From NCBI RefSeq assembly GCF_000024885.1, contig NC_013512.1, positions 372,001 through 436,000 of the forward strand: a stretch of 64,000 nt of DNA. Reading direction: 5' to 3'. Every line of letters starts with the position of its first letter. Position 1 is the first letter of the stretch. This stretch comes from Sulfurospirillum deleyianum DSM 6946 (lineage in GTDB: Bacteria; Campylobacterota; Campylobacteria; Campylobacterales; Sulfurospirillaceae). Made by a program: the position numbers and the translations under genes. Below are positions 28,497 through 33,730 of this stretch, piece after piece. Under the pieces are notes generated by a model, which worked only from the letters and a program-made list of their open reading frames with translations, was not told the origin of the DNA and did not search any database.

Positions 28497-28518
28497 TCTT
28501 TACATGTAAAGATTAAAA
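28491..28518. terminator. Perfect 28-bp palindrome shared by two stop codons
   Basis: A perfect inverted repeat centred on the TTACATGTAA copy at 28500-28509, extended on both sides to TTTTAATCT...AGATTAAAA. The left arm holds the nuclease TAA (28494-28496), the right arm the TAA of the convergent cyclase gene (28513-28515). A 14-bp hairpin with terminal T/A runs would serve as terminator in both directions. Confidence 0.75.
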
Positions 28519-29691
28519 TGGCGTTTTTGTAGATGTGTCATCTGCGTTTGTGTAACATTTAATACAATTCCTTCCACTATTTTTAGCAGTATAAAGGGCT
28601 ATATCTGCTTGTTTAAACGCTTCTTGAAAGTTTTGTGCTTGATGTGCTAAAAGATTGACCCCAATGGAAACACTTACCGAAATAGACTTCGTATCTGAAA
28701 TAAAAAACTCTGCGGTTTGGATGGCATGAAAAACACGTTCAATGACGGCAAACGAGGCTGCATAGTTACTTTTTTTATCAACTTTTGCAAGGATAAGAAA
28801 CTCTTCCCCTCCGTAGCGTATGACACTATCACCTTCACGAATCGTTTGCAAAAGGATATGCGCAATTTGTGTGAGGATTTTATCTCCCGCATCGTGTCCA
28901 TAAGTATCATTAATTTTTTTAAAATAATCAATATCCAGTGCAGCAATAATGTACTCATTTAAGTTGATGAGTTTTTCATATTTTTGAAGGTAATTTCGGT
29001 TGTAAACATTTGTGAGTTTGTCAATAAACGCACTTTGATTAATGGAGCTAAAGCGTTTGGTTTGAATGCCAATGAAGAGAAGTACCAGTATGATAACACC
29101 CATCATGCCAAAAATGCCATTTTGTATGGTTTGAATGATACGATTAATCTCTTGAATTTTATTGATAGAAAAATCAATCGCTAAAATAAGTTCTACACGG
29201 TTGTTGTGAAGAATGGGAACTAAATAGCTAAGAGAGAGCTGATGCAAAAGGGTATGGTGGATAATCAGAGGCTCTTTTGTGCTATAAATGGTAAGCCATT
29301 CTGGGCTATCAACATCAAATTTTTGATCTATGAAGGATTTTTCTTCATTTAAAGAAGCATCACCTAAAAAGCGAAAAATACCTCTTTCGTCACGGTAGAG
29401 AAGATAGGCGTATTTGACATGAGACGTAAGCAGGACGTTTAGATGTTCTTCAATTTTTTGTTGTATCGATGCATATTTTTTAACACTTTGAACATAATCT
29501 TCACTCCCTTTTAAAAGTGATTCAATCGAGTGTGCGCTGTTGTGGGTGATAGAAAAAATATCTGAGGTTGCAATTTCAAAAATTTTTGCCTCGATATTCT
29601 TTTCTAAACGCATGGTTACAAACAATAAAAAAACTAAAATGAGTCCGATAAGTCCCAATGGTGCAAAGAGATAAAAACTATTTTGACGCAT
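28513..29691 (-). CDS. Membrane diguanylate cyclase with periplasmic sensor
   Basis: This 392-residue protein probably synthesises c-di-GMP. It has an N-terminal membrane segment (about 8-28), a periplasmic region (about 30-185, four-helix or Cache-like), a second membrane segment (about 187-208) and a GGDEF domain (about 220-380). The active loop is GGEEF, and RxxD (REGD) five residues upstream is the inhibitory site. The start overlaps the stop of the preceding periplasmic protein by one base (TAATG). It is the last gene of a three-gene operon with a TonB receptor, suggesting that its output is set by an outer-membrane/periplasmic signal. Confidence 0.87.
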   Translation of the reverse strand: MRQNSFYLFAPLGLIGLILVFLLFVTMRLEKNIEAKIFEIATSDIFSITHNSAHSIESLLKGSEDYVQSVKKYASIQQKIEEHLNVLLTSHVKYAYLLYRDERGIFRFLGDASLNEEKSFIDQKFDVDSPEWLTIYSTKEPLIIHHTLLHQLSLSYLVPILHNNRVELILAIDFSINKIQEINRIIQTIQNGIFGMMGVIILVLLFIGIQTKRFSSINQSAFIDKLTNVYNRNYLQKYEKLINLNEYIIAALDIDYFKKINDTYGHDAGDKILTQIAHILLQTIREGDSVIRYGGEEFLILAKVDKKSNYAASFAVIERVFHAIQTAEFFISDTKSISVSVSIGVNLLAHQAQNFQEAFKQADIALYTAKNSGRNCIKCYTNADDTSTKTPF

Positions 29692-30146
29692 TAAAAATTC
29701 TCGATAAATTGCTGAAAAGTTTGGGGTAGGCTAATAGATTTTTCCTCAAGCCTTTGATGACTAAAGACAATATTAGGACGACTTTTATTCCAAAAAAGTG
29801 CTCCAAAAAACTTTTTATTTGAGAGGAACTTACGGTAATTATTGGTGAAGAAAAGAGTTTTTTTATCCGAAGAACACTCGATAATCTCCTCTTTTTTATT
29901 GATAAAGATAAAATTCGCTCTCTCGCAATCCTTCGTCAATGTAAAATAGTTTGCATAGACTTTCTCTTCAAGCGGTGATATATTTGGAATAAACAAGACA
30001 ATATTTTCATCCAAAGAAGCGGTGGCAATTTCATAAATAATCTTTGCCTCTAACTCGACCTCTTTGGTATAGGGTTCAACCAAGAAGGTATAGTGTTCTG
30101 CATAAGAGAGACTCCAAAGGGTGAAGATGAAAAAGAATGTTTTCAT
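29691..30146 (-). CDS. Small periplasmic protein, possibly YfiR-like (DUF4154)
   Basis: This is a 151-residue secreted protein from ATG 30146, with signal peptide MKTFFFIFTLWSLSYA. The mature part shows AKIIYEIATA near the N-terminus, a central ERANFIFINKKEEI strand and KTLFFTNNYRKFL, followed by GALFWNKSRPNIVFSHQRLEEKSISL. This pattern (a 'cysteine/strand FI' core then a 'kvLtvsd...ffl...FeIN' end) resembles YfiR/DUF4154, the periplasmic repressor of the cyclase YfiN. The resemblance is weak and read by eye. It is coupled to both neighbours by one-base TAATG overlaps, so the three proteins are made together. Confidence 0.5.
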   Translation of the reverse strand: MKTFFFIFTLWSLSYAEHYTFLVEPYTKEVELEAKIIYEIATASLDENIVLFIPNISPLEEKVYANYFTLTKDCERANFIFINKKEEIIECSSDKKTLFFTNNYRKFLSNKKFFGALFWNKSRPNIVFSHQRLEEKSISLPQTFQQFIENF

Positions 30147-32053
30147 TAGAAGACCCACTTCAATGAAACCATAATGCTTCTCTCGTTATCATCCAACGCA
30201 AAAAAAGTATTTCCAAAGTTCGTAAAATAGAGTGATTGTGTCGATTTATCAAGGATATTTGATGCTTTAATGCTGTAACTTAAATCTTTTGTCGCATGAT
30301 AGGTTGCCCCTAAGCTGACATCAAAACTATCGGGAATCTCCAGCCCTAAGTAATCATAGCCGTTTCTGTAAATGAGGGAGGTAAAGTAATCAAATTTTTG
30401 ATAACCGCCCATAAATTTGATAAATCCGCCTTTGGTCGAATTATTGATTTGTTCGCTTAGCGTGGAGGTGTAGTAGTTAAGATGGAGTTTATCTCGTTTG
30501 GAAAAAGAGTACTCGTAATCAAAAATAAGCCCATCGGTTTTAATCGTATGGTCAATATTGACAAAACCAACAGGTGTTTGATAGAGAAAATCATTAATTT
30601 CTACATGATCAAAGGTAATACCAAATTTTGAGTTTCCTTCTGTATAAACTGCCTCAAGGGTGTAAAAATGATACTCTTGGGATTTAAGGTTAGGTGTATT
30701 TTTGTTGGCATAATCTATGGTGTAAAAAGAAGGCGTTAGTGCTGTTTGGGTATAAAATGCTTTAAAACCAAAATGGGATGTGGGCGTGTAAATCGTACCG
30801 ATGCGCAAAAGTTTTTCTGAGGTATCTTTAAGATAGGCATTACGGTCGTAATAATCAATTTTGGCATTTGCAACCAGTAAAAGTTCTGGATGTAAAGAGT
30901 AACTCTCTTGTAAAAGCATGGAAGAGGTAGTTTCACGCTTAAAGCTGTTGTAATGGTCTATCTCATTGGTTTGATTTAAAAAATTTGTGCTTTTTCTCTT
31001 TAAAACATCGTATGTTTTATGTTTAACATTGAGTGCTAGAATCAAAGCATTTTCATCACTTTCAAAGGACTTAGAGAGATACGCATTGCTTTTTGTAAAC
31101 CGTAAATCTTCTTGAAAGTTTTTGGGGATACTCCATGGTATGCTAAGGTCTATTAAAGGGGTAATCGCAATGCCTTGATCATTTGCCTCTTCGTAGCTTC
31201 GCTCATTGATATCAAAGGAAAAATTGGCTTTGAGTGATTTATCTTCTAATAAAAAGTGTGTGTAATTGAGAAAAAAATCTTTTGAGAGATTTTCTCCATC
31301 ATTGGGTGTGGCATCAAGTGCGAGTCCTGTATAGTTACTTTTTGTAACATCTGTGTAGCCTAAATTGATTTTGTTTGTTTCATTGCTTATCTCGGTAAAA
31401 AGATAATGTTTTGTTCCGTTACTGGTGAATTTTTGTTGGTTATAGAGGCTTGTTTTTTTGATTTTCTCTTGATTGGCAAAGAGTAGATAAGACCACCCAT
31501 TTTCAAAAATGTGTGAATTTGTGATACTTTGTGAGTGCCCATTTTTAGATGAAAGCCATGCAGCAATTTTAGAACCATCTTCCCTGAGTGCTGATTTTGT
31601 GTAGATACGCACAAAATAGATTCCTGTTTCATTGCCAAAGGAGAAGGAGCTCTCTCCATAATAAATTTCAACATGATCAACAAAATCCAAAGGCAAATCA
31701 CTCCATGAAAGCGAAGTAGATTGGTCATAGCCTGAGCTGATTTCGTGGTCGTTAATAAAAAAACGAAAGAAGCCACTGGTCGTTGTTTTAGAGCCTGTTA
31801 GAGAGTAGTTTGTAAGTCCAAATTGATTGGTATTGATGTTAAAGAGAGGCAACTCTTTGAGGATGTCATTGAGCGTGCGATACTGCATAAGACGAATCTC
31901 TTTTTGAGAGTAAACCACCACATGTCCAATTTTTTCATTGATGGTTTCCAATGAATTTTCAGTGGTTGCTTGGTACTCTTCAAGCAGTGTATCTAACGTG
32001 TCTGAGAGAAGTAGACGACTCAATAGTCCAAGAATAAGTATAGCTCTAAACAA
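30146..32053 (-). CDS. TonB-dependent outer-membrane receptor
   Basis: This 635-residue TonB-dependent receptor has a signal peptide (about 1-18), an N-terminal plug (about 45-155, with VVVYSQKEIRLMQYRTLNDILKELP, then VEIYYGESSFSFGNETG), and a beta-barrel that ends in aromatic Phe (VSLKWVF), as outer-membrane proteins do. The ligand is unknown; no siderophore or cobalamin genes are nearby. The start is read as TTG 32053, the first possible start after an in-frame stop; no good ribosome site is visible. A TTACATGTAA copy (32068) lies just upstream. It is the first gene of the operon with the periplasmic protein and diguanylate cyclase. Confidence 0.82.
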   Translation of the reverse strand: MFRAILILGLLSRLLLSDTLDTLLEEYQATTENSLETINEKIGHVVVYSQKEIRLMQYRTLNDILKELPLFNINTNQFGLTNYSLTGSKTTTSGFFRFFINDHEISSGYDQSTSLSWSDLPLDFVDHVEIYYGESSFSFGNETGIYFVRIYTKSALREDGSKIAAWLSSKNGHSQSITNSHIFENGWSYLLFANQEKIKKTSLYNQQKFTSNGTKHYLFTEISNETNKINLGYTDVTKSNYTGLALDATPNDGENLSKDFFLNYTHFLLEDKSLKANFSFDINERSYEEANDQGIAITPLIDLSIPWSIPKNFQEDLRFTKSNAYLSKSFESDENALILALNVKHKTYDVLKRKSTNFLNQTNEIDHYNSFKRETTSSMLLQESYSLHPELLLVANAKIDYYDRNAYLKDTSEKLLRIGTIYTPTSHFGFKAFYTQTALTPSFYTIDYANKNTPNLKSQEYHFYTLEAVYTEGNSKFGITFDHVEINDFLYQTPVGFVNIDHTIKTDGLIFDYEYSFSKRDKLHLNYYTSTLSEQINNSTKGGFIKFMGGYQKFDYFTSLIYRNGYDYLGLEIPDSFDVSLGATYHATKDLSYSIKASNILDKSTQSLYFTNFGNTFFALDDNERSIMVSLKWVF

Positions 32054-32159: not shown

Positions 32160-32570
32160 TTATTTTTTACCAGAACATCGTTTACAAATGCCATTCATGA
32201 CGATAAAACTTTTTTGTATTTGAAAGCCACTCTGTGATGAAATGGTTTCTAAAAGGGATTTTGTTTCTATAAAAATATCTTCAATTCCACCACACTTTGT
32301 GCAGATGAGATGAACATGAGGTACTTTTTTTATCTCGTAATGTTGTTTTTGATGGGGTAATTTAACTTCTTCTAAAATAGAAAAACTCATCAAATCATTG
32401 ATATTTCGATAAAGCGTAGCTTTGGACATGGTCGGATACTTTTGCGTAATAGTCGTATAGAGCGTATCGATGTCGATGTGTCCAAAACGTTCAATAGCTT
32501 CTAAAATCGCTAAACGTTGGTGGGTTGATTTAAGTTGATTGGCTTGTAAAAGCGCTTTGAAGTGTTCCAT
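32160..32570 (-). CDS. Fur-family metal/peroxide-responsive regulator
   Basis: This 136-residue Fur-family repressor starts at ATG 32570 (a GTG 12 nt upstream is possible). It has an N-terminal winged helix (STHQRLAILEAIERFG, then MSKATLYRNINDLMSFSILEEV), the metal region HYEIKKVPHVHLICTKCGG and a structural zinc site of two CxxC pairs (CTKC and CKRC). It is divergent from a peroxidase gene, as PerR often is. However, at the place where B. subtilis PerR has the peroxide-sensing Asp, this protein has Glu (HYEI), as in Fur. Whether it senses peroxide or iron is therefore open. Confidence 0.85.
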   Translation of the reverse strand: MEHFKALLQANQLKSTHQRLAILEAIERFGHIDIDTLYTTITQKYPTMSKATLYRNINDLMSFSILEEVKLPHQKQHYEIKKVPHVHLICTKCGGIEDIFIETKSLLETISSQSGFQIQKSFIVMNGICKRCSGKK

Positions 32571-32604
32571 TGGTGTCACCACACTTTTGTAATGAGATTA
32601 TGAA

Positions 32605-32610
32605 ATTATA
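32605..32610 (-). promoter_or_regulatory. -10 box of the Fur-family gene
   Basis: TATAAT on the minus strand, 35 nt before the ATG at 32570. It lies less than 30 bp from the inverted repeat at 32638-32666. Confidence 0.5.
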
Positions 32611-32637
32611 GCACAGTAATGCAAAAAAAACCTAAAC

Positions 32638-32666
32638 AATATTTATTATTATTTAAGATAAATATT
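32638..32666. promoter_or_regulatory. Inverted repeat, likely operator of the Fur-family protein
   Basis: AATATTTAT (32638-32646) and ATAAATATT (32658-32666) form a perfect 9-bp inverted repeat with an 11-bp spacer, between the two divergent promoters and 2 bp upstream of the peroxidase -10 box. Binding there could repress both genes. The binding protein is inferred from position only. Confidence 0.5.
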
Positions 32667-32668
32667 CT

Positions 32669-32674
32669 TATAAT
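32669..32674 (+). promoter_or_regulatory. -10 box of the peroxidase gene
   Basis: TATAAT in TCTTATAATTTTTT, 27 nt upstream of the ATG at 32702, with AAAAAGGAG between. Confidence 0.55.
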
Positions 32675-32701
32675 TTTTTACATTCTTAAAAAGGAGAATA
32701 A

Positions 32702-33730
32702 ATGCAGATTTCTAAGGTTCTTAGTGTATGTGCTATGAGTGCAACAATGGTTTTTGGAGCAAGTAACTTGGTTCAAAAAGTAAAGGATAATGGTATTGAA
32801 GCCATTCCTACGAGTCAATTAGAGCTTTTAAAGTTGATCGATGATCCTAAAGACCCAATCACCGATGCCAAAGTAGAATTGGGCAAAAAACTCTACTTTG
32901 ACCCTCGTATGTCCAAAAGTTCTTTAATTAGTTGTAATACCTGTCATAATTTAGGTTTGGGTGGAGCAGATGGGATTGCTGCGGCGATTGGGCATGGTTG
33001 GACAGCTAATCCTGCACATTTAAATTCACCAACGGTGTACAATTCTGCGTTTTTTAAAGCACAGTTTTGGGATGGTAGAAGTCCTCACTTAGCGGATCAA
33101 GCGCAAGGTCCCGTTCAAGCAGGTCCTGAGATGGCAGCGCCACCTAAGTTAGTCGAGCAACGTATTAATTCTATCCCTGAGTATGTGAATGAGTTTAAGT
33201 TTGCGTATGGTGATAATGTCAAAATTAGCTTTGAAAAAATCACATCAACGATTGCTATTTTTGAAAAAACACTCATTACTCCTTCACGCTTTGATGATTT
33301 TATGAATGGCAATGATAATGCTCTTAGTAAAGCAGAAAAAGAGGGGCTTGAAGTTTTTATGGATAAGGGATGTGCGGCATGTCACAACGGTGTGGCTTTA
33401 GGTGGAACCATGCAACCATTTGAAGTGGCAGGTAAATACAAATTTGCTTCTCTTGGTGGATTTGCGGGAGATAAAAACGGTATGGTTAAAACACCAACAC
33501 TTCGAAATATTACGGAAACAGCACCGTACTATCACAATGGCGCAATTTGGACACTCAAAGAAGCGATTCAAGATATGGGAAGTACACAACTTGGTATTAC
33601 GATTAATGATGCAGAAGCTGCAAAAATAGAGACATTTTTGAAAGCACTAAAAGGAAGAAAACCTGTAATCACCTATCCAGAATTACCAGAGAGTACAGCA
33701 AAAACACCAAAACCTGACGCTAAACTGTAA
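32702..33730 (+). CDS. ccpA: Diheme cytochrome c peroxidase
   Basis: This periplasmic enzyme reduces H2O2 to water with electrons from a c-type cytochrome. The 342-residue protein has a signal peptide (MQISKVLSVCAMSATMVFGA) and two haem c sites: CNTCH (about residue 80) and CAACH (about residue 223). The conserved QFWDGRSPHLADQAQGPVQAGPEM region and KTPTLRNITETAPYYHNGA are typical of bacterial diheme peroxidases. A repeat that may bind the divergent Fur-family regulator overlaps the promoter. A clear terminator follows. Confidence 0.94.
   Translation: MQISKVLSVCAMSATMVFGASNLVQKVKDNGIEAIPTSQLELLKLIDDPKDPITDAKVELGKKLYFDPRMSKSSLISCNTCHNLGLGGADGIAAAIGHGWTANPAHLNSPTVYNSAFFKAQFWDGRSPHLADQAQGPVQAGPEMAAPPKLVEQRINSIPEYVNEFKFAYGDNVKISFEKITSTIAIFEKTLITPSRFDDFMNGNDNALSKAEKEGLEVFMDKGCAACHNGVALGGTMQPFEVAGKYKFASLGGFAGDKNGMVKTPTLRNITETAPYYHNGAIWTLKEAIQDMGSTQLGITINDAEAAKIETFLKALKGRKPVITYPELPESTAKTPKPDAKL

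Follow-up and report, generated by a model that had tools for sequence, protein, structure and literature searches.

How events at the outer membrane are passed on to the intracellular messenger cyclic dimeric guanosine monophosphate (c-di-GMP) is little understood, and what YfiB-type systems naturally respond to is ill-defined. A locus of Sulfurospirillum deleyianum DSM 6946 bears on this question: within a stretch of 64,000 nucleotides (contig NC_013512.1, positions 372,001 to 436,000; here called the window, with positions counted from its first letter), genes for a TonB-dependent receptor, a small secreted protein and a membrane diguanylate cyclase follow each other on the minus strand. 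An earlier reading of this DNA (the original prediction) had taken the three for one signalling operon that mirrors YfiBNR, with the TonB-dependent receptor in the place of YfiB. The analysis presented here leads, with moderate confidence, to a similar view, namely that the operon encodes a YfiBNR-like trans-envelope relay in which the TonB-dependent receptor serves as the sensor.

The predicted linkage of the three genes by TAATG overlaps is borne out by the coordinates of the open reading frames (ORFs) and by the sequence of both junctions, which read CATTA and thus TAATG on the coding strand. The stop codon of the receptor gene overlaps the ATG of the small protein gene at 30146, and the stop codon of the latter overlaps the ATG of the cyclase gene at 29691. 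The small protein starts at this ATG at 30146; the GTG listed by the ORF finder, which lies 12 bases further upstream, is not its start.

Whole-genome searches, which were confined to Campylobacterota, identified the small protein in 30 of the 44 genomes of the host's own family and, with a profile of 38 rows, in 67 of 347 genomes and 21 of 63 genera of the phylum. A contig-level scan had yielded only two close relatives and was superseded by these searches. Neighbourhoods were read at 97 homologous loci. At 94 of them, a receptor gene, a small-protein gene and a gene for a membrane protein of signalling were found in the same order and on the same strand, mostly overlapping or abutting; of the other three loci, one carries a rearranged trio (L212) and two lack one partner. 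The receptor subfamily (membership at E values up to 1e-20) is represented in 69 of the 347 genomes, and 68 contain the cyclase's sensor domain; these are nearly the same genomes and adjacent places, apart from cases that are fragments, lie at contig ends or are weak matches. On the 2.3-Mb host chromosome, which encodes 3 TonB proteins and has 33 matches to GGDEF and 8 to the plug domain, the trio receptor is the sole full member of its subfamily among the plug-domain proteins (a further match, at 1.9e-6, is partial), and the sensor domain type is likewise represented by a single member. Conservation of the trio is far above chance and does not reflect a chance neighbourhood. As the three genes are kept together in many related bacteria, the trio probably reports the binding of an outside ligand by the receptor to the cell interior.

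The small protein begins with a signal-peptide-like segment, MKTFFFIFTLWSLSYA, which was recognized from the sequence only. Pfam and NCBIfam scans of the protein revealed nothing useful, and the host genome contains no Pfam match to DUF4154, the family of YfiR. When the AlphaFold2 model (predicted local distance difference test (pLDDT) score of 88) was compared with 350,542 PDB chains, the top Foldseek match was YfiR (4zhu; E 0.01, probability 0.99), and a second aligner superimposed the model on YfiR (4yn7/4xjy) with a Z score of 9.9 over 123-124 residues and a root-mean-square deviation of 3.2. Further structural matches include 3LFT and a V. cholerae protein, both of which are listed as structural relatives of YfiR itself (PMC4655355). 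In a profile-profile comparison with DUF4154 by HHalign, for which signal peptides were removed and the wider sequence set was used, an end-to-end alignment with a score of 33.9, a probability of 72% and a P value of 3.4e-5 was obtained, whereas the best of 200 column shuffles scored 17.1. Smaller sets gave probabilities of 27% and 21%, and the profile similarity is hence modest; a probability of 91% obtained with the signal peptides in place is inflated, and the comparison of mature sequences together with the shuffles was used instead. It is concluded that the small protein is YfiR-like in its predicted fold and lies outside the present DUF4154 model, and that it is probably a remote homologue of YfiR/DUF4154. 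The weak YfiR/DUF4154-like pattern of the original prediction is thereby supported by the fold and by profile-profile comparison of the mature sequences, and fails in the direct Pfam search. Both findings on which that prediction had staked itself, a conserved trio and a small protein resembling YfiR/DUF4154, were thus made, the second of them in fold and in profile-profile comparison.

Residues Y104, G115, W119, K121, R123 and P124 of the small protein are invariant, and its conserved parts are the core GAFFWxKGRPNIxF and the C-terminal helix. In YfiR, the surface that binds YfiB and YfiN is carried by the C-terminal hairpin and helix region (PMC4655355), to which these conserved parts correspond approximately, judged by the aligned ranges. 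Of 86 members, 56 have a cysteine in each of two alignment columns and 23 in neither; this joint presence or absence suggests a disulfide.

The cyclase matches the Pfam family GGDEF (PF00990) at 7.9e-37 and contains the motifs REGD (an RxxD I-site), SVIRY and GGEEF in this order, so that the GGEEF motif and I-site noted earlier are indeed intact. By its domain and motif, it is a predicted diguanylate cyclase that would synthesize c-di-GMP. The RxxD I-site is not kept in the nearest relatives, where the position is KxxD-like. The AlphaFold2 model of the sensor (pLDDT 85) displays a single PDC/CACHE domain, which carries invariant Asp residues and whose best match among solved structures is the sensor of WalK (PDC/PAS; Z 14.9 over 140 residues). 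Neither CHASE8 nor HAMP was detected by Pfam in the cyclase, which is therefore not a YfiN orthologue.

The receptor was confirmed as TonB-dependent by a Pfam Plug match (7.5e-09) and by alignment of the receptor-family profile to residues 28-578 of BtuB (E 3e-8); as this alignment covers nearly the whole of BtuB, the receptor is full-length. A Pfam search gave no match to PF00593 itself, and assignment to the class with a plug and a 22-strand barrel is predicted from the Plug match and the BtuB alignment. No match to an STN signalling domain was found by Pfam in the receptor, in which about 24 residues separate the signal peptide from the plug. This N-terminal tail is conserved to the same degree as the plug and more strongly than the barrel (2.33, 2.39 and 1.71, respectively). 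A standard TonB box was not recognized in its conserved pattern, and the tail is a candidate contact site for TonB or for the small protein. At several loci (L042, L043, L037, L172 and L197), the receptor gene is split or frameshifted next to intact genes for the small protein and the output; at L042, the two receptor pieces lie about 2.3 kb apart.

The output of the trio is variable. In most relatives, the sensor is joined to GGDEF-EAL with catalytic motifs, in others to GGDEF alone, and in a further group to a histidine kinase, with a REC-PAS-EAL response regulator coming next in several cases. When the sequences of receptor, small protein and sensor are joined, the resulting tree requires at least 8 changes of output type. 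The three components stay constant while the output changes; they therefore behave as a unit and look like one input device for different outputs. On the same tree, the S. deleyianum trio and three relatives, all with GGDEF only, nest among relatives in which EAL follows GGDEF, which leads to the conclusion that the EAL domain was lost in this lineage. The idea that this loss is connected with acquisition of the I-site was rejected, since EAL-less sister lineages lack the I-site and many EAL-bearing proteins possess it. A separate clade (L204, L207, L210) exhibits a degenerate GGDEF motif (GGSEF/GGAEF) and has retained EAL, and its output may therefore be a phosphodiesterase only.

The strongest support for the idea of the original prediction comes from parallel systems with true DUF4154 proteins. 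In the phylum, a TonB-dependent receptor gene adjoins 23 of the 29 true DUF4154 loci, usually together with a gene for a GGDEF protein, a GGDEF-EAL protein or a kinase. Two loci of the phylum (L101 and L107) are, by Pfam, operons of the type TonB-dependent receptor-DUF4154-CHASE8-HAMP-GGDEF. Among Proteobacteria, which were sampled through plasmid records only, plasmid pPBSW1 of Pseudoalteromonas sp. Bsw20308 encodes a receptor, a YfiR (DUF4154) protein and a CHASE8-HAMP-GGDEF-EAL protein (D172_RS17295/17290/17285), and the alphaproteobacterium Indioceanicola profundi combines receptor and DUF4154 protein with CHASE8, histidine kinase and REC (L222). The existence of such operons in both Campylobacterota and Proteobacteria shows that a TonB-dependent receptor can take the place of YfiB. 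They agree with the S. deleyianum trio in order and logic, but contain true DUF4154 and CHASE8, of which the trio carries diverged or replaced versions. The two families of trios are bridged by one locus (L102:3957-8501, plus strand), where a true DUF4154 protein, a TonB-dependent receptor and a kinase with the PDC/CACHE sensor type of S. deleyianum are encoded in one row. Thus, the layout of TonB-dependent receptor, YfiR-type protein and membrane sensor with exchangeable output exists in two kinds of small protein and sensor. We know of no published name for the operons with DUF4154 and CHASE8, and no description of an operon joining a TonB-dependent receptor and YfiR was found in the searched literature, whose coverage falls short of most subscription papers. 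At another locus, receptor and DUF4154 genes stand beside a gene for a CHASE8-SpoIIE phosphatase (L106:233-1765, minus strand), a possible further output type for YfiR-like relays.

In YfiBNR, YfiB sequesters YfiR and thereby frees YfiN (PMC4655355, PMC4887326). By analogy, a scheme of contacts, control and ligand action can be proposed for S. deleyianum. Ligand binding and/or TonB-driven transport would alter the periplasmic face of the receptor, which, according to its ligand or TonB state, would bind the small protein or let it go. The small protein may shuttle between the receptor and the PDC/CACHE domain and so control the cyclase, which it would keep inactive until captured by the receptor, whereupon c-di-GMP would rise. 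Uptake of a ligand could in this way be converted into a c-di-GMP signal, as originally proposed, with an output that in this lineage was simplified from cyclase-phosphodiesterase to cyclase only.

Several observations weigh against such a relay. At E 0.1, neither the small protein of the window nor the 38 members of its family match DUF4154 (PF13689) in Pfam, and a PDB sequence search with the small-protein profile does not recover YfiR. The Foldseek E values are about 0.01, and the Z score of 9.9 is only moderately above the level that unrelated models attain. The correlation of 0.90-0.93 between the pairwise distances of the three proteins, which speaks for the relay, is uncorrected for species relatedness. 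The sensor is of the PDC/CACHE and not the CHASE8 type, and could bind a small ligand on its own. Finally, the receptor is broken in some genomes in which the small protein and the cyclase are intact (L042, L043), and is therefore not always essential.

The main alternative, which is considered unlikely, is that the receptor imports a ligand that is then bound by the small protein, with its fold resembling half of a substrate-binding protein, and presented to the PDC/CACHE domain without any contact between receptor and small protein. Binding proteins do present ligands to some sensor kinases, the small protein also matches the substrate-binding-type structures 3lft and 5z6v (Z about 9), and small ligands are the usual binding partners of the PDC/CACHE fold, to which the sensor with its invariant Asp residues belongs. 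However, the small protein is one-lobed, and the known one-lobe relatives with this placement in operons are DUF4154/YfiR proteins; in addition, its conservation peaks in the C-terminal hairpin/helix, the equivalent, by an approximate mapping, of the YfiB/YfiN-binding surface of YfiR. Co-expression alone is less probable again: here the cyclase would sense a periplasmic signal of its own, while the receptor, which looks like a complete BtuB-like transporter, would form an uptake unit with the small protein, and the genes would lie together for the sake of joint regulation. This is at odds with the near-exclusive co-occurrence of the three parts, which are tied to the sensor domain and not to one output enzyme, and with the same layout in operons whose sensor is CHASE8 and whose small protein is a true DUF4154. 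A plain YfiBNR system with YfiB encoded elsewhere and an unrelated receptor, although it would account for the YfiR-like fold and the GGDEF partner, can hardly be upheld, as the lack of CHASE8/HAMP and of a DUF4154 match already contradicts it and, of all neighbours, the receptor recurs most regularly.

The proposed relay with the TonB-dependent receptor as sensor can be set beside YfiBNR of Pseudomonas aeruginosa, HmsCDE of Yersinia pestis and YfiR-DgcN-YfiB of E. coli, which are also three-part operons comprising an outer-membrane part, a small YfiR-fold periplasmic protein and an inner-membrane cyclase with a periplasmic sensor. In these systems, however, the outer-membrane part is an OmpA/Pal-like lipoprotein instead of a TonB-dependent receptor, the small protein falls within the DUF4154 model, the sensor is CHASE8-HAMP instead of PDC/CACHE without HAMP, and the outputs are not swapped for GGDEF-EAL or a histidine kinase as in the relatives of the S. 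deleyianum trio. The original prediction is supported, with the one correction that the cyclase is no YfiN orthologue. With FecA-FecR-FecI, the trio shares a TonB-dependent receptor and, as proposed here, signalling across the envelope; it differs in that the receptor has no STN domain and no adjoining FecR/FecI-like genes and in that the predicted output is c-di-GMP. WalK (YycG), the nearest solved fold for the sensor domain, is a histidine kinase of Gram-positive bacteria with about 16% identity to that domain, and is controlled by the extracytoplasmic partners YycH and YycI.

The features of the operon are compiled in the table below. According to Pfam, its neighbours are a nuclease gene and a Fur-family gene; the region directly upstream (window 32160-33730) holds this regulator gene of the Fur family and, in divergent orientation, one whose product, as read from its sequence, is cytochrome c peroxidase-like. 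All three were rejected as parts of the system, as they are found near the trio only within the genus. The palindrome TTACATGTAA flanks the operon on both sides (window 28500 and 32068) and is present at 29 other places in the window. Its 31 window copies compare with 0.05 expected, and its 1,099 copies in the 2.3-Mb genome with 3 in the reversed control. It sits between and within genes, often as TTTACATGTAAAG. Most sister genomes are rich in it (3-6 per 10 kb), and the examined loci of other families have none. It is a HIP1-like or uptake-like repeat, and a function as operator of the operon was rejected because of its genome-wide occurrence.

Table. Features of the trio operon (positions in the window).
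Feature	Position	Strand	Remarks
TonB-dependent receptor	30146..32053	-	635 amino acids, BtuB/Cir-like, TTG start, C-terminal Phe
Receptor N-terminal periplasmic tail ahead of plug	31928..31999	-	residues 19-42, family pattern LLxxY...SDLS..TK.E..G
Receptor plug domain	31628..31927	-	residues 43-142, Pfam PF07715
Small secreted protein, predicted YfiR fold	29691..30146	-	151 amino acids, AlphaFold2 model and profile-profile comparison
Most conserved segment of small protein, GAFFWxKGRPNIxF	29763..29804	-	residues 115-128 counted from ATG
Membrane diguanylate cyclase (predicted)	28513..29691	-	392 amino acids, GGEEF with RxxD I-site, Pfam and motifs
Cyclase periplasmic sensor, single PDC/CACHE fold	29134..29613	-	about residues 27-186, AlphaFold2 model
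Cyclase GGDEF domain	28567..29031	-	residues 221-375, Pfam

The balance of evidence tips slightly towards a broader generalization, in which a widespread class of trans-envelope signalling systems in Campylobacterota and Proteobacteria, as yet without a name, is gated by TonB-dependent receptors, with a YfiR-fold periplasmic relay to swappable inner-membrane outputs (GGDEF, GGDEF-EAL, histidine kinase and possibly SpoIIE); the S. deleyianum operon would then represent a Campylobacterota branch that has a PDC/CACHE sensor and a relay family of its own. As a TonB-dependent receptor should bind a definite ligand, the question of how the outer membrane communicates with c-di-GMP would become directly testable. 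If true, such a relay would constitute a second route of signalling by TonB-dependent receptors beside the FecA-FecR-sigma type, and would assign a function to an uncharacterized family of periplasmic proteins that about one in five of the sampled Campylobacterota genomes encode.

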